Shown here: in pieces, positions 4,282 to 20,400 of the stretch | Layout: every line of letters starts with the position of its first letter | Position numbering within the stretch: position 1 is the first letter of the stretch | IMG/VR virus record: IMGVR_UViG_3300021960_000667 | Coordinates: 1 to 20,400 of that record | DNA: 20,400 nt | Source: a virus | Reading direction: 5' to 3' (one strand) | The notes under the pieces: generated by a model | What the model was told of the DNA's origin: nothing | Database searches by the model: none | What the model saw: the letters and a program-made list of their open reading frames with translations, nothing else | Program-made: the position numbers and the translations under genes

Positions 4282-5853
4282 ATGCCAGATTTAAGAACAC
4301 TCATACGAGAAGAGTGGGTCAAGTGCGCTAAAGACCCTGTATACTTTTTTAAAAAGTATTGTTACATTCAGCACCCCCACCGAGGAAAAATCCTTTTTAA
4401 CTTGTATGAGTTTCAAGAGGGGCTGATGCATAATATCAATGACCATCGTTTTAATGTAATCCTCAAATCACGACAATTAGGTATCTCTACACTTTCAGCC
4501 GGATATTCACTCTGGCTGATGTTGTTTCACGAAGACAAAAACATTTTGGTAATTGCAACTAAACAAGAGGTTGCAAAGAACCTTGTAACGAAGGTTCGTT
4601 TTATGCATTCTAACTTACCAACTTGGTTAAAAGGTCAAACCGAAGAGGACAACAAACTATCACTCCGATTAAAGAATGGTTCGCAAATCAAAGCAACATC
4701 TGCTGCTGGAGATGCTGGTCGTTCTGAAGCATTGTCTCTTTTGGTAATTGATGAGGCTGCATTTATTGATAATGTAGAAGAAATTTGGACATCCGCACAA
4801 TCAACACTTTCAACAGGTGGTGGTGCTATTGTATTGTCTACACCAAATGGTGTGGGTAACTGGTTTCACAAAGTATGGTTACAAGGTCAAGCTGGAGAAC
4901 AATGGCACCCAACCGAACTCCATTGGACTGTACACCCTGATAGAAATCAACGATGGAGAGATGAACAAACAAAACTCCTTGGTGAAAAGGGCGCAGCCCA
5001 AGAATGTGATTGTGACTTTATTTCATCCGGTTATACAGTAGTAGAAGGTTCTACACTACAATGGTATCAAGAGACTTATGTAAAAGACCCTGTTGAAAAA
5101 CGAGGATTTGATGGTAACTATTGGTTATGGGATTATCCAAACTATTCTCGTGACTATGTAGTGGTTGCCGATGTCGCTCGTGGTGACTCAACCGACTATT
5201 CAGCATTCCATGTTTTTGACATAGAAACCGTAGAACAAGTTGCAGAATATAAAGGTAAAATTGAAACTAAACAATATGGTGCATTTTTAGCATCAGTTGC
5301 AAGTGAGTGGAATAATGCAATGTTGGTTGTTGAAAACGCAAACATTGGGTGGGCTGTAATTCAAGAAATTATTGATAGACAATATCAAAATTTATATTAT
5401 TCATATAGAGAGCTGGGTTACATTGATGAAGATATTCATCTTCGTAAAGGTTGGGACTTAAAACGAAAAGATGATATGGTTCCTGGTTTTACAATGTCCT
5501 CAAGAACACGACCTTTGGTGATTTCAAAACTCGATACTTACATGAGAGAACGAACCCCAATCATTCACTCTAAGCGATTAATTGATGAGTTATTCGTATT
5601 CATATGGAATGGTAGTAGAGCAGAAGCACAGCGAGGTTATAATGATGATTTGGTGATGTCATTCTCAACGGGCTTGTGGGTTCGTGATACTGCATTGAGA
5701 TTAAGACAACAAGGTATGGATTTAACGAGAACCACATTGGGTCATATTGGTAAATCCAACACGGGTGTGTATTCGGGTAGAACATTAGGTCAAGACCCTT
5801 GGAAACAAAAAGACCCATACGGAAATGACAATGATTTAACTTGGCTACTTTAA
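4282..5853 (+). CDS. 17: Terminase large subunit (T4 gp17-like)
   Basis: Packaging motor that pumps DNA into the prohead through the portal and cuts the concatemer. 523 residues, shorter than T4 gp17 (610). N-terminal ATPase: KSRQLGIST at 62-70 occupies the Walker A position, LLVIDEAAF (153-161) is Walker B with D157-E158, and LSTPNG is the likely coupling motif. The Walker A lacks the usual Lys before Ser/Thr; Lys62 at its start may replace it, as in lambda-type terminases. C-terminal RNase H-fold nuclease: VVVADVARGDSTDY with D297, LVVEN with E351, and NDDLVMSF with D455/D456. The start at 4282 lies 6 bases after the upstream stop; an out-of-frame ATG at 4278 is ignored. It is followed directly by the portal gene, without the sheath and tube genes that intervene in T4. 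No small terminase subunit is recognisable nearby. Confidence 0.95.
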   Translation: MPDLRTLIREEWVKCAKDPVYFFKKYCYIQHPHRGKILFNLYEFQEGLMHNINDHRFNVILKSRQLGISTLSAGYSLWLMLFHEDKNILVIATKQEVAKNLVTKVRFMHSNLPTWLKGQTEEDNKLSLRLKNGSQIKATSAAGDAGRSEALSLLVIDEAAFIDNVEEIWTSAQSTLSTGGGAIVLSTPNGVGNWFHKVWLQGQAGEQWHPTELHWTVHPDRNQRWRDEQTKLLGEKGAAQECDCDFISSGYTVVEGSTLQWYQETYVKDPVEKRGFDGNYWLWDYPNYSRDYVVVADVARGDSTDYSAFHVFDIETVEQVAEYKGKIETKQYGAFLASVASEWNNAMLVVENANIGWAVIQEIIDRQYQNLYYSYRELGYIDEDIHLRKGWDLKRKDDMVPGFTMSSRTRPLVISKLDTYMRERTPIIHSKRLIDELFVFIWNGSRAEAQRGYNDDLVMSFSTGLWVRDTALRLRQQGMDLTRTTLGHIGKSNTGVYSGRTLGQDPWKQKDPYGNDNDLTWLL

Positions 5854-5925: not shown

Positions 5926-7794
5926 ATGGCAGATAAATCTCTTTTTGGTAGATTAAGAAAACTATTCAACACACAGGTTGTTGTTCGTAGGATTGGTAAG
6001 GGTCGTACTCAAGCAGTTGACACCCAACGATTACAATCCCAAGGTAACCTTCGTGGTTCATCATATTATGATAGATTTGGTAGATTACATACTACTCGTA
6101 GAAATTGGGAAACATACAACAACCAATTTAATTATCATTCAAACAAATTAGAATTATATACTGATTACGAAGCAATGGATAAGGACTCCATTATTGCTTC
6201 AGTTTTGGATATCTACTCTGATGAATGTACCTTGAAGAATGATATGGGAGATGTACTTCGTATCAAAACTCAAGATGAAAATGTAAAGAAAATCCTTCAC
6301 AACTTATTTTACGATGTTCTAAACATTGAGTTCAATCTATGGGCTTGGATTCGTGGTATGAACAAGTATGGTGATTACTTCCTTCACCTTGATATCGAAG
6401 AAGGTGTTGGTATTGTAAATGTATCACCAATGTCAGCATATGAGGTAGAACGTGAAGAGGGTTTTAATCCTGAAAACCCATATGAAGTAAGATTCAAATT
6501 AGGTTCTATGGGTGCTGCTCACGGAGCAAGTGTAAACAAGAATGCAGAAGTTTTTGAGTTCTATCAAATTGCACATTTCCGTTTGATGGCAGATACAAAC
6601 TTCCTACCTTATGGTCGTTCTCTTTTAGAGGGTGCAAGAAAGACTTGGAAACAATTGACTCTTATGGAAGATGCAATGATGATTCATAGAATTATGAGAG
6701 CGCCAGAAAGAAGAATCTTTAAGATTGATGTGGGTAATATTCCTCCAAATGAGGTTGATAACCATATGAGAAGTATTATCGACCAAATGAAAAAAGTTCC
6801 ATATCTCGACCAAACCACAGGTGACTACAACCTCAAGTTTAACTTGATGAATATGTTGGATGATTACTATCTTCCAGTTCGTGGCGGTCAAAGTGGTACG
6901 GAGATTGAGTCATTAAGCGGAATGGAATTTGGTGGTATCGATGATATCGAATACTTGAGAAATAGAATGATGGCAGCACTCAAAGTTCCAAAAGCATTTA
7001 TTGGATATGATGAGGCCGTTGAAGGTAAAGCAACATTAGCACAAGAAGATATCAGATTCGCACGTTCGGTTGAGAGAATTCAAAAAATTGTTCTTTCCGA
7101 GTTGACTAAAATTGCAATTGTTCACTTATACTCACAAGGTTACGAAAACGAAGACCTTGTAAACTTTGAGTTGGAATTAACCAACCCATCTATTATTTAC
7201 GAACAAGAAAAGGCATCTTTATGGTCTGAAAAAGTAAATCTTGTCAGAGATATGAAAGAGCTTAAAATGGTTTCTCAAGAGTGGATGTATAAAAACATTA
7301 TGAATATGTCCGATGATGAATGGAAGGCTGAACAAGCTAAAGTTATTAACGACCTTAAACTTGGATTTAGACAAGCTCAAATCGAAGATGAAGGTAATGA
7401 CCCAGTTAAGACCGGCCAATCATTTGGTACACCACACGACCTTGCTGCATTAAACCTACAAGATGGTGAAGAAGCGGGTGAGGAAAATCAAGGTGGTTCA
7501 CCGCAAGGTGGATTCGAAGGAGCTGGTAGACCAGAAACTGCCGGAACTTATAAAACCGATGATAGTACATTTGGTAGAGACCCACTAGGTCAACAAACTG
7601 ATATTAAACCAGCGGCAACATACCACAAATACAAAAACTCACCTCTTGCATATGAACAAAAAGAGGCATTGAGAACATCTTTGAAAAAGGTAAAAGTAAA
7701 GTCACATCAAATTTTACAAGAATCTTTAGGTGAAGATGTTAAGAAAGAAAGTGGTCTTTTAGATGAATCAAATCTTCTTCAAGACACGATTTGA
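5926..7794 (+). CDS. 20: Portal protein (T4 gp20-like)
   Basis: Forms the dodecameric ring at the special capsid vertex, the channel for DNA entry and the docking site of terminase and later the neck. 622 residues, longer than T4 gp20 (524). Family features include IMRAPERRIFKIDVGNIP (from 256), close to the T4 RAPERR segment; a DDYYLPVRGG stretch near 312, matching T4's portal core; and a helical RNRMMAALKVPKAFIGYDEA region. The N-terminus (1-60) is basic with many Arg. From about residue 485 the protein adds a low-complexity Gly/Gln/Glu tail and a helical end containing LQESLGEDVKKESGLLDESN, which accounts for much of the extra length. ILQESLGE also offers LxE-type sites, so C-terminal trimming is conceivable. 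Own candidate promoter at 5879; stop TGA at 7792-7794. Confidence 0.95.
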   Translation: MADKSLFGRLRKLFNTQVVVRRIGKGRTQAVDTQRLQSQGNLRGSSYYDRFGRLHTTRRNWETYNNQFNYHSNKLELYTDYEAMDKDSIIASVLDIYSDECTLKNDMGDVLRIKTQDENVKKILHNLFYDVLNIEFNLWAWIRGMNKYGDYFLHLDIEEGVGIVNVSPMSAYEVEREEGFNPENPYEVRFKLGSMGAAHGASVNKNAEVFEFYQIAHFRLMADTNFLPYGRSLLEGARKTWKQLTLMEDAMMIHRIMRAPERRIFKIDVGNIPPNEVDNHMRSIIDQMKKVPYLDQTTGDYNLKFNLMNMLDDYYLPVRGGQSGTEIESLSGMEFGGIDDIEYLRNRMMAALKVPKAFIGYDEAVEGKATLAQEDIRFARSVERIQKIVLSELTKIAIVHLYSQGYENEDLVNFELELTNPSIIYEQEKASLWSEKVNLVRDMKELKMVSQEWMYKNIMNMSDDEWKAEQAKVINDLKLGFRQAQIEDEGNDPVKTGQSFGTPHDLAALNLQDGEEAGEENQGGSPQGGFEGAGRPETAGTYKTDDSTFGRDPLGQQTDIKPAATYHKYKNSPLAYEQKEALRTSLKKVKVKSHQILQESLGEDVKKESGLLDESNLLQDTI

Positions 7795-9204: not shown

Positions 9205-9345
9205 ATGTCGTGTGGTTGTAATAAAAATAAATTGAATGAAGAACTTGAGGTTCAAGACCTTGAGGAAATCCGTTTGATGATTCGTAGAGAATTAGCACGG
9301 GTCTTCTTTGATTTATATAGAAAGAAAAAGGTTTGGGAGAACTAA
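9205..9345 (+). CDS. 46-residue protein upstream of the protease gene
   Basis: Small open frame starting one base after the preceding stop and ending in TAATG, with its stop overlapping the gp21 start by one base. The product begins MSCGCNKNKLNEELEVQDLE and ends in a basic helix, RKKKVWEN. Two Cys within the first five residues could bind metal or form a disulfide. LNE12/E13 is a possible gp21-type cleavage point. T4 gp67, a small core protein, lies in a comparable place, but the sequence is too short to claim homology. The perfect fit between two genes with coupled stop/start signals is the main reason to believe it is translated. Confidence 0.7.
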   Translation: MSCGCNKNKLNEELEVQDLEEIRLMIRRELARVFFDLYRKKKVWEN

Positions 9346-9986
9346 TGAAACAACTTCTTGTAGATACAATGATATTTGATGTAACACCTACAATGTTACA
9401 AGAGGCTCAAGAAAAGCATGGTCGTTTCTTGGTTAATGGTGTATTGCAAAGAGCAAACGCTAAAAACCAAAATGGTAGAGTATACCCAAGAAATATTCTT
9501 GAAAGAGAAGTTGAAAAGTACAAGGGTCGTGAAATTAAAGAGAATCGTGCTTACGGAGAACTCGACCATCCTGAATCTGCCGTTGTAGAATTAAAGAACA
9601 CATCACACATCGTTCGTGATGTTTATTGGAAGGGTGATGATGTAGTAGGTACAGTTGAAATTCTCAACACACCTACGGGTAACATTCTTAAAGAACTCAT
9701 TAAAGCAGGTTGTACTGTTGGTATCTCATCAAGAGGTATGGGTTCAGTAAAACAAATCGGTGAAGATACTGTTGCAGTTGAAAACGACTTTGATTTGATT
9801 TGTTGGGATTTTGTATCTAATCCATCAACTCATGGTGCATTTATGTCTCCAAAAAACGAAGGTGTAATCAATGAGTCGGTTACCATTAAAAACAATACTT
9901 ATAAATACAAGAAAGCTAACAACCTTATGAGAGAAATCATTTGTGAAGTTGGTGGCTATTGTGAATGTGATTTCGGAGTAAAATAA
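9345..9986 (+). CDS. 21: Prohead core protease (T4 gp21-like)
   Basis: Serine protease that degrades the scaffold and trims capsid proteins during head maturation. From the ATG at 9345 it is 213 residues, nearly the T4 length; GGGAG at 9335-9339 supports this start over an upstream in-frame TTG at 9333. The family core is clear: NGRVYPRNILEREVEKY, AYGELDHPE with likely catalytic His75, and TVGISSRGMGSV with likely catalytic Ser128 or Ser129, followed by the FDLICWDFVSNPSTHGA strand typical of the fold. Near the C-terminus GVINE177/S178 matches the cleavage rule, so self-processing removing 36 residues is plausible, as T4 gp21 also autocleaves. The removed tail begins SV, echoing the ESVNE linkers elsewhere. 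Overlaps the next gene by one base (TAATG). Confidence 0.93.
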   Translation: MKQLLVDTMIFDVTPTMLQEAQEKHGRFLVNGVLQRANAKNQNGRVYPRNILEREVEKYKGREIKENRAYGELDHPESAVVELKNTSHIVRDVYWKGDDVVGTVEILNTPTGNILKELIKAGCTVGISSRGMGSVKQIGEDTVAVENDFDLICWDFVSNPSTHGAFMSPKNEGVINESVTIKNNTYKYKKANNLMREIICEVGGYCECDFGVK

Positions 9987-11469: not shown

Positions 11470-12792
11470 ATGAATGGATTTTTATCAGTATTAGATACAC
11501 GAAAGAAAGAATGGCAAGCCCGAAAGAGATGGTGGATACAAAAATACAATATTCAATCGGAACTTGGTAGAGAGGATACTATATCTAAATCAAGGTTTTG
11601 GGATGATAATACTGTATCTATATTTGATGCTACCTTATGTGAAACCATCTACACTTCGTTTATCCCACCATCAGGTTCAATCCTTGACCCATTTGCAGGT
11701 GGAAGTGTTAGGGGTATTGTAGCCGAAGAGTTAGGGTTTAGGTATACAGGCGTAGAATTATCCAAAGAACAAATAGACGCAAACAAATTACAATCCAATA
11801 AACCAACTTGGATTTGTGGTGATAGTGAAGAAGTGTTAGATACACTACAAGACCAATATGATTTGGTATTTACCTGCCCACCATATCACGACTTGGAAAT
11901 ATATTCCGATAATCCAAATGACTTATCCAATATGGATTGGGATACGTTTCTTATCAAATACAAATCAATCATACAAAAATCATATGATAAACTAAAAGAC
12001 AATAGGTTCTTTATTATTGTTGTGAGTGAGATACGAGATAGATTGACTACTGGCAATTATAAGATTGGTAAATATAAGGGGTTTGTTCCATCTACCATTA
12101 GGATTGCTGAAGAATGTGGGTTTCATTACTATAACGATGTTGTGTTGATAAACGCATCTCAACAATCCGGCAGAATGTCCAACGTATACTTCAATCGTAA
12201 TAGAAAGGTAGCATCAACTCATCAGAATGTTTTGATGTTTGTAAAAGGAAACCCAGACCTTGCAACCGAAGACATTGAATGGGATGGAACATATGTTTGT
12301 GAGATAGATGGTAAGAAGTATAAGTCATATAGAGAAGCTGCAATAGATATTGAACCAAACAAACTTGTAGCAAGTGAAGTAGAGCGTAGGTGTATGTCAA
12401 CTAAATACAAATATAAGGATTGGAATATACTTGGGATTGATAAAAAACCTAACATACAATTTGATATAGATGGGGCCTTATTCCAATCAACATCACAAAT
12501 AACTAAACTACTTGGTAATATAACTGAAAATAATGTTAGAACGTGGGTGGATTCAAACTCTAAAAATTGGATTCATTGGAAACGAGTATCTTCAGATGAG
12601 TATAATGTGTCTTATAGTGAAATGGAACAAACTTGGAACAATGCAATCCGATTTGAATTAAATACAATCAAATGTGAAGGTATTGAGTTTAAAACAATAA
12701 AAGAAGCTTCACAATATTTTAATTTATCACCTGAACGAATACGACAAAAGTTAGTTTCTGATAAATATGATGACTACATATATCTTAATTAA
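11470..12792 (+). CDS. DNA methyltransferase with three C-terminal NUMOD1/IENR1-like repeats
   Basis: 440 residues. The N-terminal part (1-265) is an AdoMet-dependent DNA methyltransferase: LDPFAGGS at 72-79 is the AdoMet-binding motif I, and TCPPYHD at 135-141 is the catalytic motif IV (N6-adenine or N4-cytosine type). The order is motif I before IV. The C-terminal 160 residues hold three copies of a small module of the pattern hydrophobic-x-x-G-x-x-(Y/F)-x-S/T-x-x-(E/Q)-(A/I), from 278, 331 and 400: DGKKYKSYREAA, DGALFQSTSQITKLLG and EGIEFKTIKEASQYF. The first two end in a Trp-Asn/His-containing strand (W318, W368). These resemble NUMOD1/IENR1 helix-turn-helix DNA-binding modules best known from homing endonucleases. 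No GIY-YIG or HNH nuclease core is seen. The gene is bracketed by hairpins and interrupts the head operon, suggesting acquisition as an independent cassette. The target site is unknown. Confidence 0.85.
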   Translation: MNGFLSVLDTRKKEWQARKRWWIQKYNIQSELGREDTISKSRFWDDNTVSIFDATLCETIYTSFIPPSGSILDPFAGGSVRGIVAEELGFRYTGVELSKEQIDANKLQSNKPTWICGDSEEVLDTLQDQYDLVFTCPPYHDLEIYSDNPNDLSNMDWDTFLIKYKSIIQKSYDKLKDNRFFIIVVSEIRDRLTTGNYKIGKYKGFVPSTIRIAEECGFHYYNDVVLINASQQSGRMSNVYFNRNRKVASTHQNVLMFVKGNPDLATEDIEWDGTYVCEIDGKKYKSYREAAIDIEPNKLVASEVERRCMSTKYKYKDWNILGIDKKPNIQFDIDGALFQSTSQITKLLGNITENNVRTWVDSNSKNWIHWKRVSSDEYNVSYSEMEQTWNNAIRFELNTIKCEGIEFKTIKEASQYFNLSPERIRQKLVSDKYDDYIYLN

Positions 12793-12864: not shown

Positions 12865-13113
12865 ATGGCAGAACAAAAAGTTAGAAAAGAAAGAGAGGAG
12901 TTATTCCTCTATGGTCACGCAAATGGTGTGAGAGTTATCAATGGTAATGTTGAAGCCGCACTTCGTAAGTGGAAACGTATGATGAAAGATAGTGGTATCA
13001 TTGATTACGTTAAACACAATCGTGAATACACAAAACCAACTACGGCTCGTAGAAAAAAGATGAATGACGCCATCAGAGCTGAGTGGGTACGAAGAAGAAG
13101 AGAAGACTATTAA
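12865..13113 (+). CDS. rpsU: Ribosomal protein bS21 homologue
   Basis: 82 residues with the bS21 pattern in its middle: VINGNVEAALRKWKRMMKDS, then GIIDYVKHNREYTKP, TTARRKKMNDAIR and a basic C-terminus. bS21 sits on the 30S platform near the anti-Shine-Dalgarno end of 16S rRNA and helps mRNA selection in initiation. The N-terminus (MAEQKVRKEREELFLYGHANG) is about 20 residues longer than typical. Phage-encoded bS21 is known from several phage groups, including marine ones, and may replace the host protein to bias translation toward phage mRNA. Here it sits just before the scaffold/capsid genes, the most heavily expressed late proteins. The context suggests late expression. Confidence 0.9.
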   Translation: MAEQKVRKEREELFLYGHANGVRVINGNVEAALRKWKRMMKDSGIIDYVKHNREYTKPTTARRKKMNDAIRAEWVRRRREDY

Positions 13114-13231: not shown

Positions 13232-13262
13232 TTATCCAAAAGTTTAATTTAGGAGATAACAA

Positions 13263-14306
13263 ATGAAATCAGATTTGTTAAAAGAAGCAATCGCTGATGC
13301 CAAGGCCGTAAAGGAAACTGCATTAGCAAACGCTAAGATGGCTCTCGAAGAGGCATTTACTCCAAAACTTCAATCTATGCTTTCTCACAAACTCGCTGAA
13401 GAGTTAGAAGATGAAGAAGAAGTAGAAGATGAAATGGAAGATTCAATGGCACCAGAGATGGAAACCGAAGAAGAATTGGACATGGCATCTGAAGAAGAGG
13501 TTGAAGAAGAGTTAGATTCTGATGAAGAAGAAGAGGTATCTGATATCGCTTCTGATGAAATCGAGTCTCACGAAGAGGAAATGCATTCTGAAGAAGAGGG
13601 TTCTGAAGAAGAAGAAGCCGACATGGAAGAGATGATGGATGAAGAGGAAGATGAAATGACCGAAGAGGAAGATGAGTTGGACTTGGAATCAGTAATCGCT
13701 GAATTGGAAGCTGCTTTGGGCGATGAAGAAGTATCTGAAGAAGAAGATGCTGAAGAAGTATCTGAAGAAGAAGACCTTGAAGAGGAACTTGATTCATCTG
13801 ACATTGAAAATGATGATGAGTTGACTGAAGAAGAAGATGAAGAATTGTCTTTGGAAGAAATCATCTCTACATTGAAAGAAATGGCTGATGAAGAAGAAGT
13901 TTCTGAAGAAGAGGAAACTGTTGAAGAAGGTTGGAACGAAGAAAAAGAAACCGAGTTGGAAGAAGCTTACAATGTTATTACATCATTGAAGAACACTATC
14001 AACGAAGTAAATCTTTTGAACGCTAAACTTCTTTACACTAACAAGTTGTTCAGAACTTTTGATTTGAACGAGAACCAAAAGATGAAAGTTATCGAGAACT
14101 TCGATAGAGCCGCATCTTTAAGAGAAGTAAAATTGGTATTCGCTACATTGGGTGAGAACTTAAATGTTGCTAAAAAACCTAAAACAGTTGTTAAAGAATC
14201 ACTTGCATCTAAACCTATGAAGTCAAGCGCACCGCAGAAATCAATCATTTCTGAAGGTAACGTAGTAGCTGATAGATTTAAGAAGCTTGCTGGTTTGATT
14301 AAATAA
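13263..14306 (+). CDS. 22: Prohead scaffold protein (T4 gp22-like)
   Basis: 347 residues. Identification rests on position before gp23, composition and processing motifs rather than close similarity. The N-terminus MKSDLLKEAIADAKA has LKE8/A9. Residues about 45-230 are extremely rich in Glu and Asp in runs such as EEEVEEELDSDEEEE, giving a strongly negative interior protein. The C-terminal third (about 235-320) is a helical domain with IKNTINEVNLLNAKLLYTNK-like heptads (more exactly LKNTINEVNLLNAKLL). The end contains IISE331/G332, which would release a 16-residue peptide ending in RFKKLAGLIK. T4 gp22 forms the prohead core and is degraded by gp21 to small acidic peptides that stay in the head. 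AGGAG at 13251-13255 with 7-base spacing is the best ribosome binding site in the window, consistent with high expression. The GAAGAA-rich codons make a low-complexity tract prone to length change. Confidence 0.85.
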   Translation: MKSDLLKEAIADAKAVKETALANAKMALEEAFTPKLQSMLSHKLAEELEDEEEVEDEMEDSMAPEMETEEELDMASEEEVEEELDSDEEEEVSDIASDEIESHEEEMHSEEEGSEEEEADMEEMMDEEEDEMTEEEDELDLESVIAELEAALGDEEVSEEEDAEEVSEEEDLEEELDSSDIENDDELTEEEDEELSLEEIISTLKEMADEEEVSEEEETVEEGWNEEKETELEEAYNVITSLKNTINEVNLLNAKLLYTNKLFRTFDLNENQKMKVIENFDRAASLREVKLVFATLGENLNVAKKPKTVVKESLASKPMKSSAPQKSIISEGNVVADRFKKLAGLIK

Positions 14307-14335: not shown

Positions 14336-15952
14336 ATGAACACAAATTCATTATTAAACGAATCTGCTGGTTTCAACAAGAAAATGTCTGAAGAGGCCAA
14401 AGGCCTTGTAGGTAAGTGGGAAAAAACAGGTCTTTTGGAAGGTATCACTACCGACTTCGAAAGAGCTGGAATCGCTACATTGTTGGAAAACCAAGCAAAA
14501 CAATTAGTATCTGAAGCTTCTGCTACTGGTACTTCTGCAAACTCTGAAGAGTGGGCTGGTGTCGCTCTTCCATTGGTACGAAGAATTTTCAGCGAAATCG
14601 CTGCTAAAGAATTCGTTTCAGTACAACCTATGAACCTTCCTTCTGGTCTTGTATTCTACTTGGATTTCAAGTATGGTACTGCTCAGCCAGGATTTGAAAC
14701 AGGTGCTGGTAAAGACTCACAAACTGACTCTGTATTCGGTATCACCGAAACTGCTAATGAGGCTTCTGAAGGTCTTTATGGTGCTGGTCGTTTTGGTTAC
14801 ACTATCCAAGATACTGCATCAGTTGTTGCTGAAGCATCTTGTGTAACTGCATCGTTGGCATCTTTGAGTGACATCAACTACGATTCAGCATTCTCTGCAT
14901 CAGTATGGGCGTCTTCTGACCTTTACACTGTTGCTGTTCCTGTTGCTAATTTGAGTGGTTACGACTCTGAAGGTGTTCGTGCTTTCGCTATCGAAGCATC
15001 TGCCATTACCGAGTACTACCCTGCATACACTAAATTGTCAGGTGCTAATGTAGTATTCGTAGTAAAAGGTTCTTCTACTGAAGCATTGGCCGGTAACGCT
15101 ACTGTTAAGTTCCAAAAGCAACCAACTGACATCACTCGTGGTGACTTCGAACAAACTACTGCTGGTTTCGGTCAAAACCCTGAAACTGATTTGGGTATTC
15201 CAGAATTGAACGTAGAGCTTCGCTCTGTGCCAATCGTTGCTAAGACTCGTAAGTTGAAAGCACAATGGACTCCTGAATTTGCTCAAGATTTGAACGCATA
15301 CCACTCAATCGATGCTGAAGCTGAATTGACTTCAATGTTGTCTGAATACATCTCACAAGAAATCGACCTCGAAATCTTGGATATGTTGGTAGAAAACGCA
15401 TTGACTACTGGTTACTGGTCAGCTCGTATCGGTTACTCTTGGAATGGTAGTGGTTTCACTTCTTCTGGCTTGAATGCTGCTGTTGAGAGATACACTCAAC
15501 AACAATGGTTCCAGACTCTTGGTACTCAATTACAAAGAGTTTCTAACCAAATTCACACCAAAACAATGAGAGGTGGCGCTAACTTTATGGTTGTTTCTCC
15601 AGATGTAGCTACTGTTCTTGAGTCTATCCCAGGATTTGCTGCTTCAGGTACTGGTAACGAAATGCAATTCGCAATGGGTGTATCTCAAGTAGGTTCATTC
15701 GCTAATCGCTACCAAGTTTACAAGAACCCATATATGCAAGAAAACCTTATCTTGATGGGCTTCAAAGGTTCACAATTCTTGGAAAGTGGTGCTGTTTACG
15801 CTCCATACATTCCATTAATCATGACTCCGTTGGTGTACGACCCGAAAAACTTCCAACCAAGAAAAGGTGTAATGACACGTTACGCCAAGCAAATGGTTCG
15901 TGGTGAGTTCTACGGTAAAGTATACGTTCACGGTTTGGAAATCTTCTCTTAA
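14336..15952 (+). CDS. 23: Major capsid protein precursor (T4 gp23-like)
   Basis: 538 residues, HK97-fold capsid subunit that forms the head hexamers. The N-terminal propeptide starts MNTNSLLNES and continues helical to QLVSE60/A61, which aligns in place with the T4 maturation cut (FLTE65/A66). The mature N-terminus would be ASATGTSANSEEW. The following ALPLVRRIFSEIAAKEFVSV and QPMNLPSGLVFYLDFKYGT stretches match the conserved capsid core (T4: GVQPMNSPTGQVF). The C-terminal region contains TRYAKQMVRGEFYGKVYVHG, typical of the family. An inserted Ala/Ser/Thr-rich segment (about 165-260) would correspond to the surface domain. GC-richer third positions and frequent GCT/GGT codons compared with neighbours fit high expression. 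AAAAGG lies upstream. A very strong terminator follows at 15978. Confidence 0.95.
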   Translation: MNTNSLLNESAGFNKKMSEEAKGLVGKWEKTGLLEGITTDFERAGIATLLENQAKQLVSEASATGTSANSEEWAGVALPLVRRIFSEIAAKEFVSVQPMNLPSGLVFYLDFKYGTAQPGFETGAGKDSQTDSVFGITETANEASEGLYGAGRFGYTIQDTASVVAEASCVTASLASLSDINYDSAFSASVWASSDLYTVAVPVANLSGYDSEGVRAFAIEASAITEYYPAYTKLSGANVVFVVKGSSTEALAGNATVKFQKQPTDITRGDFEQTTAGFGQNPETDLGIPELNVELRSVPIVAKTRKLKAQWTPEFAQDLNAYHSIDAEAELTSMLSEYISQEIDLEILDMLVENALTTGYWSARIGYSWNGSGFTSSGLNAAVERYTQQQWFQTLGTQLQRVSNQIHTKTMRGGANFMVVSPDVATVLESIPGFAASGTGNEMQFAMGVSQVGSFANRYQVYKNPYMQENLILMGFKGSQFLESGAVYAPYIPLIMTPLVYDPKNFQPRKGVMTRYAKQMVRGEFYGKVYVHGLEIFS

Positions 15953-16061: not shown

Positions 16062-16721
16062 ATGCCTGAAAACGTAGAGAAGAGAGTACCAAAGGGGGAC
16101 ATTAGGTTCACACTTTCATTATCAGAAGAACAAAAGTTAGCGAAATCACAAATACTTTATCATCCATTCAATTTTATATTAGGAAAGGCCGGTAGTGGTA
16201 AGACCTTAATGGCAGTTCAAATTGCATTGGATTTGTTCTTTAAAAGAGAAGTAAATAAAATCGTTATAACACGACCAACAGTTTCAAATGAAGATAACGG
16301 ATTCTTGCCGGGGTCATTGGAAGAAAAAATGGAACCCTGGTTAGTTCCAATTCGTTCCAATATGAGAAAGGTTTACAACAAACCTGAAGTTTTGGAAAAG
16401 ATGGAAAAGAATGAAGATATTGAATTGGTATCTTTAACTCACTTTAGAGGGAGAACTTTTGATAATTGTATAGTTATAGTAGATGAGTTTCAAAACTTGA
16501 CCAAACAACAACTTGGAATGGTCTTGGGTAGATTGGGAAAAAACTCTCGAATGATACTTTGTGGAGATGGTCAACAAATTGATTTAAAATTCAATAATGA
16601 TTCAGCAGTTCACGATGTGCCAAAGTTAAAAGATTCTCAATATGTATATACAACGACCCTAAAAGATAACCACAGACATGAGTCTTTGGATGAGGTGTTA
16701 CGATTATTGTATTCATATTAA
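16062..16721 (+). CDS. phoH: PhoH-like ATPase
   Basis: 219 residues, a single P-loop NTPase domain of the PhoH family. Walker A is GKAGSGKT at 41-48; Walker B is IVIVDEFQN with D141-E142. Family-typical ITRPTVSNEDNGFLPGSLEEK (split here: ITRPTV, then GFLPGSLEEKM) and a late GDGQQIDL sensor-like segment are also present. The length fits the compact phage form. PhoH-like genes are very common in marine phages. Despite the name, a role in phosphate metabolism is unproven, and RNA-associated or helicase-like activity is an alternative. It has its own candidate promoter and follows the capsid terminator, so it is probably a separate late unit. Confidence 0.95.
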   Translation: MPENVEKRVPKGDIRFTLSLSEEQKLAKSQILYHPFNFILGKAGSGKTLMAVQIALDLFFKREVNKIVITRPTVSNEDNGFLPGSLEEKMEPWLVPIRSNMRKVYNKPEVLEKMEKNEDIELVSLTHFRGRTFDNCIVIVDEFQNLTKQQLGMVLGRLGKNSRMILCGDGQQIDLKFNNDSAVHDVPKLKDSQYVYTTTLKDNHRHESLDEVLRLLYSY

Positions 16722-16787: not shown

Positions 16788-19700
16788 ATGCCATTTGACT
16801 ATACCGGCTCATTTAGTGGTTCATTTACTGGTGATATTACATCAACTAATGGTGTTATTTCATCTTCGGCTCAGGTTGTTTCAAATCTACCAAGTGGTGT
16901 AGTATCTGCATCCAGTCAAATAGATTATAGAACTATACAAAACAAACCGGCCACCATTTCTGCATTCCAGAAAAACTCTATTGTAGCTAATAATAACTTT
17001 AGAGAAAATATATATCCCAATGATTCGGCATCATTTGATTCTCGAATAAATGAACTCGCTGCAAACGACAATACGGGTTCGGATGCACAAACACTTTCAT
17101 TTAATTCAGCCACAAACGCTTTAACCATTTCAAGTGGTAATAGTGTTGATTTATCATCACTTTCTGGTGGTGGTAGTGGTGGTAGTGGTTTGGCTATTAC
17201 AGCATCAGATGAGGGAGTCACTCTTTCAGAAAATGTGCGTAGTTTAGATTTTGTTGGTAACGCAGTAACCGCTACAAATAGTGGTAATGCAGTTACAATC
17301 ACAATCAATACAGGTTCCGCTGGAGTTTCGACTTGGACTGAACTAACAGGCAAACCAAGTGGTTTAGTTAGTGGGTCTTCCCAAATTACGGATGTAATCA
17401 CCGATTCATATATTTCAGCATCAGCTGCTGCAAGTGGATTCGGTACTGGTGGTGGGACAAGTGACTTCAATAGTCTAATCAATGTGCCAAGTGGTCTCGT
17501 ATCAAGTTCAGACCAAATACTTCCAATCACAACTTCAAGTATTACTGACTTTGATACCGAGGTATCTCGTTCAGCAGCTGAAGCAGGATTTGGTGCTGGT
17601 GGTGGTGAAACTTACACGGCCGGTAATGGTATTTCTATTACATCAAATGTAATTTCTATTGATACATCATCAACACACTTTAGATTAGGTGTATCTGCAT
17701 CTGCAGCTCTATACGGATTTGGTTCTGGTGGCGGTGGTGGTTCATTTGGTGACCCACCGGTAATTACATCTCATGGATTTACAATTCCAGAATTTACCGG
17801 CAGTGGTGCTTTGATTGGAACTCTTGTCGCAACAGATGTTACGCCTGGTGATACTCAAACTTGGGCAATCCAAAGTGGTTATACTGATAATTTCTTTGAA
17901 GTATCTACTGCTGGTGTTGTTAGAGCTGTAGCGTCATCAAGTAGAGCAATGAATACGGACAATACTCCTGGTTCCGGTTCACATCCATTCTTGATTCAAG
18001 TAACTGATGGTCAAAACAACACGGTAGAAAAAACAATTTATATTCGTGTAACTCCAAATTCAGCACCAGTATTTAGAATTGATGGTGTGAGTGGAAACAC
18101 AATTACATCATTTACGGCATCATTAGATGAATCATCAAGTGCTGCAACTAAAACACAATATAGAGTTTATGTTACTGATGCTGATAGTGATGCTTTGACC
18201 ATTAGAACTGGTAGTTTAGGTACTGACCATTTTTCATTTACAATTGGAACTACTGGCGTATCAAAATACATTGACCTTGTTCAAGTAACATCTTCTTTAG
18301 ATTATGAAAACATAACATCATACTCTTTTGTATTGACCGCATCTGATGCAAATTACGAAGCCGGATATGATGTTCCTAATATTACATACCTACCATATCG
18401 TGTTGAGGTGGTTGATAACTTGGGTCCAGGCATCCAAGACCAAACAATTTCAGGTGTTAATGAAAATTCATCTGATAGTACTTCTGCCGGTAGTATATCT
18501 GCTACGGATAATAGTAATCCGGCAAACACAATTTACTATAAAAATTTCACATTAGTATCAGCACATTCTGGAAGTAATGTTTCAAACCCAAACATTACCT
18601 CTTCTCTTGGAGGTACATCTTTAACCGACCCAACCGCAGACGCATTCCAAATGAACATTGCGGGCGCAGTTACCCGTAGGTCATCAGTATTTTTAAATTC
18701 TGATATTGCAAACCGATATGTTTATAGAGTTAATGTTGGCGATGCATATAATGCTGATACCGCAAGTGCATTAATTACAATTCCAATTTCAGATGACGCC
18801 GCATCAACTATTGGCGCTAATGGTGGTACATACTATACATTAGAATCATCGGTTCAAGGTGATAATCTAACAACAAATTCTAATGGATATACTATATCAA
18901 ACGTAACATTCACCTCTGCTGTATCTCAGCGATGGGAAGTAAATACAATTCCAAGTGGGTATGTTAGATTTGCAGATAATAGTTCAACAGCATATACGGG
19001 TTCAAGTGCTACATTAGAAATTGATACTAATATTAGTGGTTCTCCATATTCTGGTAGTAATACTATTGCAATTCAAATTACAGCATCTGAAAATTTATTT
19101 TATACTACTAAACAATATAGAAACCATACATTAAACATTGTAGAAAATTCTGCACCAATCGGAACGTATTCCGAGACAAGTGCAAACTTAAATACAAATG
19201 GCGCAAGACCATCAAATACAATTTTAACTTTAACTTGGTCTGATACTGAAAGTGATTCTTTAAATCACAATACATTTACATTTTCAAGTGATGCAGATAT
19301 TACATCATCTTGGGATGGTGCATATGAGTACACAATTACACCAACATCAAATCTTGCAGCAGGAACTTATTATGTAAGTGCAAGTATTAAAGATGAACAC
19401 GGGTTCCGTACAGGTGAAAAAAATACATCATTTACAATTGCACAAGCACCAACTGGTAGTTTGTCCGAAAATGGTACATTCTATGTAATCGAATCGGCAA
19501 CAACTGGTGATAATATTGTATTGGGAACAAATGGTAGAACTGGAACTCAAGGTGACTTGGGAGTTTCTTACTCACCACAATACAATTCAGCCGCAGTCGC
19601 ATCATTTACTTCATCAAACGAATATATTGGGGTAAATAGTAGTGGTAATCTCACAGTTAGTAGTTCGATTAGTGGTAGTGTAAACATATACCCAGGAACA

Positions 19701-20400
19701 ATTACTTCAGACATTACTTGGAGAGACCAATATGATAATGTTGGTGGGCCTCAAACTATTACTGTAAATCTTGCAATTAATAACGCACCTTCTGCTGCCG
19801 AACTTACTTCTACAAATAGAAACACTAACCAAGCAACCAATGGTAATCTATTATCTACTATAAAGTGGACTGATACTGAAAGTGATGCTTTGAATATTTC
19901 ATCATTTGTATTAACAGGTGTAAGTGCTTCTAACTTATCAAGTTCATACGATGGGTCTAACAACTTTGGATTATACGCAAATGGTGACCAATCGGCAGGA
20001 ACTATTTCGTTCACAGCAAGTATTAAAGATGTACATGGATTTAGAACTGGTGTGTATACAGATGATATCACAATCGCACAAGCCGATAACGGTACTTTGA
20101 CCGCACCTGGTAACTTGTTTATTATTGAATCTGCTACAAGTGGTGATGGTATTACAAATACTACAACTGGTATTGGTACTGCTAAAACTTTGAGTGTAAC
20201 GTATTCACCAAGTTATGGGTCACCAATTGCACAAAACTTCACATCCGATAACCCATTTGTTGCAGTTAACTCATCAACGGGTGTATTAACTGTTGGAACT
20301 GATATTAGTGGTAGTGGTAATACCGATGGTACAACTCTTACTGCAAACATTGGTTGGGAAGACCAATATGGTAATGCAGATTCAGCACCAATTACCGTGA
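16788..20400 (+). CDS. Large repeat-rich tail fibre or adhesin protein (runs past the window end)
   Basis: At least 1204 residues without a stop, continuing beyond the window. CGGAG at 16777-16781 supports the ATG. The start MPFDYTGSFSGSFTGDI and three copies of PSG(L/V)VSxSxQI (from residues 35, 190 and 234) resemble tail-fibre-type proteins of marine T4-like phages. Gly-rich hinges (SGGGSGGSG and FGSGGGGGSFG) lie between them. From residue about 322 the protein becomes a chain of beta-sandwich domains with cadherin-like features: TDADSDALTIRTG, SLDYENITSYSF and VVDNLGPGI. From residue 789 a unit of 211 residues repeats. Composition is rich in Ser, Thr, Asn and Gly and poor in Cys and Lys. 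The likely role is host-surface binding on the virion, but a head fibre or decoration protein cannot be excluded, since the gene lies beside head genes. Confidence 0.85.
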   Translation, partial: MPFDYTGSFSGSFTGDITSTNGVISSSAQVVSNLPSGVVSASSQIDYRTIQNKPATISAFQKNSIVANNNFRENIYPNDSASFDSRINELAANDNTGSDAQTLSFNSATNALTISSGNSVDLSSLSGGGSGGSGLAITASDEGVTLSENVRSLDFVGNAVTATNSGNAVTITINTGSAGVSTWTELTGKPSGLVSGSSQITDVITDSYISASAAASGFGTGGGTSDFNSLINVPSGLVSSSDQILPITTSSITDFDTEVSRSAAEAGFGAGGGETYTAGNGISITSNVISIDTSSTHFRLGVSASAALYGFGSGGGGGSFGDPPVITSHGFTIPEFTGSGALIGTLVATDVTPGDTQTWAIQSGYTDNFFEVSTAGVVRAVASSSRAMNTDNTPGSGSHPFLIQVTDGQNNTVEKTIYIRVTPNSAPVFRIDGVSGNTITSFTASLDESSSAATKTQYRVYVTDADSDALTIRTGSLGTDHFSFTIGTTGVSKYIDLVQVTSSLDYENITSYSFVLTASDANYEAGYDVPNITYLPYRVEVVDNLGPGIQDQTISGVNENSSDSTSAGSISATDNSNPANTIYYKNFTLVSAHSGSNVSNPNITSSLGGTSLTDPTADAFQMNIAGAVTRRSSVFLNSDIANRYVYRVNVGDAYNADTASALITIPISDDAASTIGANGGTYYTLESSVQGDNLTTNSNGYTISNVTFTSAVSQRWEVNTIPSGYVRFADNSSTAYTGSSATLEIDTNISGSPYSGSNTIAIQITASENLFYTTKQYRNHTLNIVENSAPIGTYSETSANLNTNGARPSNTILTLTWSDTESDSLNHNTFTFSSDADITSSWDGAYEYTITPTSNLAAGTYYVSASIKDEHGFRTGEKNTSFTIAQAPTGSLSENGTFYVIESATTGDNIVLGTNGRTGTQGDLGVSYSPQYNSAAVASFTSSNEYIGVNSSGNLTVSSSISGSVNIYPGTITSDITWRDQYDNVGGPQTITVNLAINNAPSAAELTSTNRNTNQATNGNLLSTIKWTDTESDALNISSFVLTGVSASNLSSSYDGSNNFGLYANGDQSAGTISFTASIKDVHGFRTGVYTDDITIAQADNGTLTAPGNLFIIESATSGDGITNTTTGIGTAKTLSVTYSPSYGSPIAQNFTSDNPFVAVNSSTGVLTVGTDISGSGNTDGTTLTANIGWEDQYGNADSAPITV
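19152..20400 (+). repeat. Tandem 633-base (211-residue) adhesin repeat
   Basis: Unit 1 spans 19152-19784 and unit 2 starts at 19785 and is cut by the window edge after about 205 residues. Matching landmarks in order: NSAP / NNAP just around the start; LTWSDTESDSLN / IKWTDTESDALN; SIKDEHGFRTG / SIKDVHGFRTG; FYVIESATTGDNI / LFIIESATSGDGI; VSYSPQY / VTYSPSY; ITWRDQYDN / IGWEDQYGN. A more divergent relative may precede unit 1 (YYTLESSVQGDN near residue 690). Confidence 0.85.

Follow-up and report, generated by a model that had tools for sequence, protein, structure and literature searches.

Why would a phage keep a gene for ribosomal protein bS21 among its head genes, next to genes that start behind Shine-Dalgarno (SD) sequences? 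Phage-encoded bS21 is already known (PMC6375957, PMC9723584). In Flavobacterium johnsoniae the anti-SD sequence is hidden in a pocket, and Tyr54 of bS21, which stacks on A1534, helps to guide the tail of the 16S rRNA there; messages with a strong SD are translated 3-5 fold more when Tyr54 is replaced (Y54A) or the C-terminus is lost (PMC9976891). An earlier note on the locus proposed that the phage protein might restore SD use on phage mRNA, as a translational takeover, if the host belongs to the Bacteroidota.

The window, that is, the whole stretch of DNA analyzed (20,400 bp), is an entire IMG/VR record from a marine T4-type myophage related to Immutovirus. PHROG matches, synteny and terminase identity place homologs of gp17, gp20, gp21 and gp23 in Immutovirus order, and the head cassette likewise runs through large terminase, portal, maturation protease, scaffold, major capsid protein (MCP) and PhoH. 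The terminase is 59% identical to those of both Flavobacterium phage immuto and 'Microcystis' phage Mel-JY01. The bS21 gene lies between the protease and MCP genes, inside the structural cassette:

4282..5853, + strand: terminase large subunit (gp17-like), PHROG-matched, 59% to immuto; no SD
5926..7794, + strand: portal protein (gp20-like), PHROG 213; weak site without an SD 4-mer
9345..9986, + strand: head maturation protease (gp21-like), PHROG 207; SD GGGAG
11470..12792, + strand: DNA methyltransferase gene directly 5' of bS21, PHROGs 12517 and 498; SD-less
12865..13113, + strand: phage bS21, 82 aa, Arg71 at the place of Tyr54; own start without an SD
13248..13259, + strand: SD of the scaffold gene, taggagataaca, core AGGAG, from the sequence; -7.3 kcal/mol
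13263..14306, + strand: acidic 347-aa protein in the prohead scaffold position, by synteny and homologs between bS21 and MCP
14336..15952, + strand: major capsid protein (gp23-like), PHROG 138; SD AAAGGA
16062..16721, + strand: PhoH-like protein, PHROG 170; SD AAAGGGA
16788..20400, + strand: long open frame leaving the record end, tail-type by position and by its counterpart at 161337 in the relative G006; SD CGGAG

A PHROG search gave no match for the 347-aa protein in the scaffold position.

That the phage has its own bS21 with an extended N-terminus, as the earlier note had read it, is borne out. The protein matches PF01165 (42.5 bits, cut-off 27) and TIGR00030 (42.5 bits, cut-off 28.95), and in a phmmer alignment its residues 27-71 pair with residues 10-54 of F. 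johnsoniae bS21 (7jil) over equal lengths, so the phage N-terminus is 17 residues longer, an extension also seen in two further alignments. The comparison of phage and host residues at the 16S 3' end, one of the checks proposed for this locus, covered the Tyr54 position only; there Arg71 of the phage protein aligns to Tyr54, and close relatives have Arg as well. An AlphaFold model (pTM 0.48) has bS21-like helices and a poorly ordered N-terminus, and in a fold search with it the best eight matches were all bS21 chains, none of them significant. Other IMG/VR contigs contain identical or nearly identical copies, records of 173-178 kb have 79%-identical ones, and in the alignment members of the clade share a conserved bS21 core. 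A tblastn search of the phage collection with the phage bS21 found no relative, and a direct genome scan with it returned no cellular relative.

SD sites, scored as a 4-mer complementary to the 16S tail at positions -20 to -4, precede 12 of the 20 window genes (bS21 excluded) compared with about 20 of 130 (15%) internal in-frame ATGs (p=5e-5). The purine-rich sites remarked on earlier are all present, in a window whose SD count exceeds chance: AGGAG at the scaffold gene (13263, -7.3 kcal/mol), AAGGAG at gene 1135 (GTG start, -7.7 kcal/mol), GGGAG at gene 9345 (-7.3 kcal/mol) and CGGAG at gene 16788 (-6.6 kcal/mol). Contrary to the earlier claim, the scaffold site is not the strongest: gene 8682 has a stronger one (-8.5 kcal/mol), and several further genes have sites at least as strong as that of the scaffold gene. 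No SD precedes the bS21 gene (-1.0). The methyltransferase gene adjoining it upstream is also SD-less amid the SD-rich cassette.

A genome-wide tabulation of SDs, also proposed earlier, was run in G006, a near-complete relative of the window phage with a 79%-identical bS21. Homology to genes of T4, immuto and Mel-JY01, either replication/early or structural, decided the class of each gene, blind to SDs, with timing taken from gene function. SDs precede 25 of 35 late genes and 1 of 17 early (replication) genes (p=1.3e-5), a split that is robust to other SD definitions, vanishes with control motifs and represents essentially one species, since G006 and G008 are near-identical. Neither T4 (early 21/31, late 24/29) nor Pelagibacter phage HTVC008M (71% early, 60% late) has such a split, which is therefore no general habit of T4-like phages. 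Across the Arg54 clade AGGA stands near the start in 34 late-gene leaders and in 0 upstream control stretches, which implies selection, and GGAG in 23 against 0. Phage SD strength is moderate, mostly -4 to -8 kcal/mol. As a separate observation, TATATTAG lies 10-15 nt before several early gene starts in G006 (genes 27251, 32403, 44326 and 134677), and the coding strand has 14 copies of GTATATTAG compared with 3 on the other; this is a candidate early promoter, and the transcripts are possibly near-leaderless.

The bS21 genes of the relatives stand apart from their own cassettes. The motif is found in 3 of 31 distinct bS21 upstream sequences compared with 233 of 420 other cassette genes (p=3e-7, which overstates independence given that the upstream sequences are related); two of the three motifs lie near -20 and the third is from Mel-JY01. 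By contrast, host rpsU genes have SDs of -13 and -16 kcal/mol in two of the three Bacteroidota genomes examined first. An SD-less bS21 gene is expected if it has to be translated ahead of a switch in initiation, and SDs on late genes together with SD-less early genes and an SD-less switch gene are what the G006 split and the bS21 leaders display.

We consider a late translational switch the best explanation for this phage bS21, and give it an even chance of being right. Early in infection, host ribosomes carrying host bS21 (Tyr54), with the anti-SD hidden, would translate SD-less messages, and the phage early genes and the bS21 gene would be written SD-less to match. Once made, phage bS21 would take the place of host bS21 on the 30S platform and, lacking Tyr54 and bearing the N-terminal extension, would leave the 16S tail free; it may also help to hold the SD helix. 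SD-bearing late phage mRNAs would then initiate well and SD-less host mRNAs would lose ground. For this protein we infer the bS21 exchange, the release of the anti-SD and the mRNA preference. The fuller claim, that a lytic phage re-activates SD recognition in SD-silenced bacteria by swapping one ribosomal protein midway through infection and keeps its genome in two initiation styles (late genes with SDs, early genes and the switch gene in the host's SD-less style), has a slightly less than even chance.

Related phages without bS21 fit this reading. Among sister contigs gathered by an MCP scan seeded with immuto, counting only those adequately covered, the median SD fraction is 0.12 in 49 contigs without bS21 compared with 0.55 in 28 contigs with it. 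Entire sister records of up to 183 kb were searched for bS21 and none was found in those tested, and five long genomes without bS21 have no SD signal (early 9/89, late 20/192). Immuto itself has the same head-cassette order as the window, but neither annotation nor search shows a bS21 in that cassette, and its early and late genes are SD-less. However, on an MCP+portal tree bS21 presence changes once, so common ancestry or a common host shift could explain the association of bS21 with SDs; the single transition also ruled out a phylogenetic test by independent pairs.

The single event on the tree is also consistent with a phage bS21 that acts as host bS21 does, keeping ribosomes complete or the anti-SD hidden, or that counters a host translation shut-off, while the late SDs have a separate origin, for example in an ancestor's other host. 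Host-like or shut-off-countering roles have been suggested by Chen et al. (PMC9723584) and Mizuno et al. (PMC6375957). Position 54 across phages speaks partly for this explanation. Several bS21 proteins of the same clade retain Tyr54 together with the extension, and their genomes still have late SDs (late 61/119, early 10/35, p=0.02). Independent Bacteroidota-type phages whose bS21 lacks the extension and has an aromatic residue 54 have largely SD-less genes (late SDs 7/38), which means that bS21 can be carried without SDs. Yet SDs that were neutral relics should not cluster on late genes, nor be absent just from bS21 and early genes, and the 34-to-0 count of AGGA against the control stretches argues the same way; we regard a host-like role with unrelated SDs as improbable.

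The same comparison narrows what the late switch could rest on. Independent phage bS21s with Lys54 and no extension go with late SDs in 0 of 4 genes. A second Arg54 lineage without the extension has late SDs in 17 of 46 genes, mostly orthologs of a few genes, and SDs in 3 of 63 genes of unknown class. Arg54 is therefore neither clearly necessary nor sufficient, and the N-terminal extension may contribute to the SD effect. Two simpler accounts were rejected: as a general rule, that bS21 presence as such predicts SDs, given that genes are mostly SD-less in phages with independent Bacteroidota-type bS21s lacking the extension, and as a complete account, that Arg54 alone is the switch, given the late SDs with Tyr54 plus extension and, without the extension, none with Lys54 and some with Arg54. 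Mel-JY01 (PP395634), recorded as a Microcystis phage, is Immutovirus-like and has a bS21 with Lys54 and SDs genome-wide.

The reading also depends on the host. Type 9 secretion (T9SS) is a Bacteroidota system. G006 encodes a 985-aa protein (L029:8492-11446) whose start resembles a signal peptide and which bears a T9SS sorting domain of type A; it is apparently destined for export through the host T9SS, and all of G005-G008 encode it. The sorting domain also occurs in G025 and G028, both without bS21, so both kinds of phage, those that have bS21 and those that do not, appear to infect bacteria with a T9SS. Flavobacterium phages are among the closest cultured relatives. A Bacteroidota host, the condition set by the earlier note, is probable; the support belongs to the clade and comes from relatives such as G006, the window and G004 being too short to show a marker. 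A further secreted-looking G006 protein had no match in 395 Bacteroidota genomes. G006 GroEL was uninformative as a host marker: its best matches, at about 50%, came from both Gammaproteobacteria and Bacteroidota. Among the matches to phage GroEL, that of JAHREJ010000015.1, titled Bacillus subtilis, ranks among those of Xanthomonadaceae, and the record is probably a contaminated or mislabelled assembly.

Among cellular Bacteroidota, SD use goes with the identity of residue 54 in bS21. In 20-kb samples of GTDB genomes, SDs precede 12% of genes in Tyr54 genomes (background 16%) and 31% in Arg54 genomes (background 15%; p=5e-6), which supports a role for position 54. Arg54 bS21 occurs in 27 of the 30 best-scoring GTDB Bacteroidota, and the existence of such SD-using Bacteroidota raises the main rival to the late switch: that the host itself uses SDs and has an Arg54-type bS21, as a member of a non-Bacteroidia class of Bacteroidota might. 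The phage SDs would then be host-style and the phage bS21 a mimic, and the early/late split would have a different origin, for instance stronger signals in front of structural genes that are highly expressed. The G006 tRNAs give this rival some room, as 8 of the 20 best genomes are Arg54-type, and so does Mel-JY01, a relative recorded from a cyanobacterium. The four best tRNA matches are, however, Tyr54 genomes, and the six best-matching genomes typed for the T9SS protein all have Tyr or His at this position. Moreover, 1 SD in 17 early genes of G006 misfits a host rate of 31% (p=0.016), the bS21 and early genes look SD-less, and T4 and HTVC008M, whose hosts use SDs, have no split. An SD-using Arg54 host is accordingly unlikely in our judgment, but less so than the other alternatives.

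Comparison with described systems sets the window protein apart. Like the window, the Bacteroidetes phages of Chen et al. have bS21 within the terminase-portal-protease-capsid region, and Bacteroidetes hosts are predicted for them; their bS21 has been proposed to join host ribosomes in the late phase of infection. In those phages the gene is on the reverse strand, whereas in the window it is on the cassette strand. All 61 of their bS21 proteins have an aromatic residue 54, and the authors argued that these may work much like host bS21, with a blocked anti-SD (PMC9723584). The window bS21 has instead Arg at this position, the N-terminal extension and neighboring late genes with SDs, and with Arg54 against an all-aromatic set it is a different kind of phage bS21. 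The T4-like HTVC008M also encodes a bS21 (Mizuno et al. 2019), which has been shown to enter E. coli ribosomes (PMC6375957); this phage has an SD-using host and, unlike G006, SDs on early and late genes alike.

The closest mechanistic parallel is the bS21-deficient F. johnsoniae ribosome of McNutt et al. 2023 (PMC9976891), in which the lost Tyr54/C-terminal contact is likewise predicted to free the anti-SD and favor SD messages. That case concerns host rpsU autoregulation and very strong SDs, whereas here a phage replacement would act on many late genes with moderate SDs. It also suggests that the phage SDs could be read by ribosomes without any bS21, the phage protein displacing or destabilizing host bS21 and not itself staying. 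Ribosomes lacking bS21 do prefer strong SDs in F. johnsoniae (PMC9976891), and the two host rpsU genes with SDs of -13 to -16 kcal/mol are in line with this. But the phage SDs fall far short of that strength, the core of bS21 is conserved in the clade, and E. coli ribosomes stably take up the pelagiphage bS21 (PMC6375957), which makes this explanation very improbable. SD strength counts against the late switch as well, given that Bacteroidia rpsU autoregulation is reported to need an SD below -13 (PMC9976891) and the phage SDs mostly lie at -4 to -8.

Taken together, Arg54, the G006 split, the SD-less bS21 genes, the SD-less sisters, the T9SS-encoding relatives and the contrast between cellular Arg54 and Tyr54 genomes speak for the late switch; the single bS21 event on the tree, the late SDs in members with Tyr54 and the extension, the K54 and R54 groups, the moderate SDs and the one-species split speak against it. 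The original takeover interpretation is partly supported. It came through checks that might have gone against it, on the reality of the motifs, the host phylum of a close relative, residue 54, the early/late split, the SD-less bS21 gene and the SD-less sisters. Arg54, the late-only SDs of G006 and the SD-less sisters agree with a restored SD use; the members combining Tyr54 and the extension with late SDs complicate it. A literature search, with subscription papers mostly outside its reach, found no report of a phage bS21 predicted to expose the anti-SD together with late-gene SDs.

The late switch offers a concrete answer to why so many phages carry bS21, and the idea is testable in an existing genetic system, F. 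johnsoniae rpsU mutants with SD and SD-less reporters. If true, it would represent a phage-made specialized ribosome with a readable mRNA code, and would explain how phages can override the loss of SD-based initiation in the Bacteroidia.
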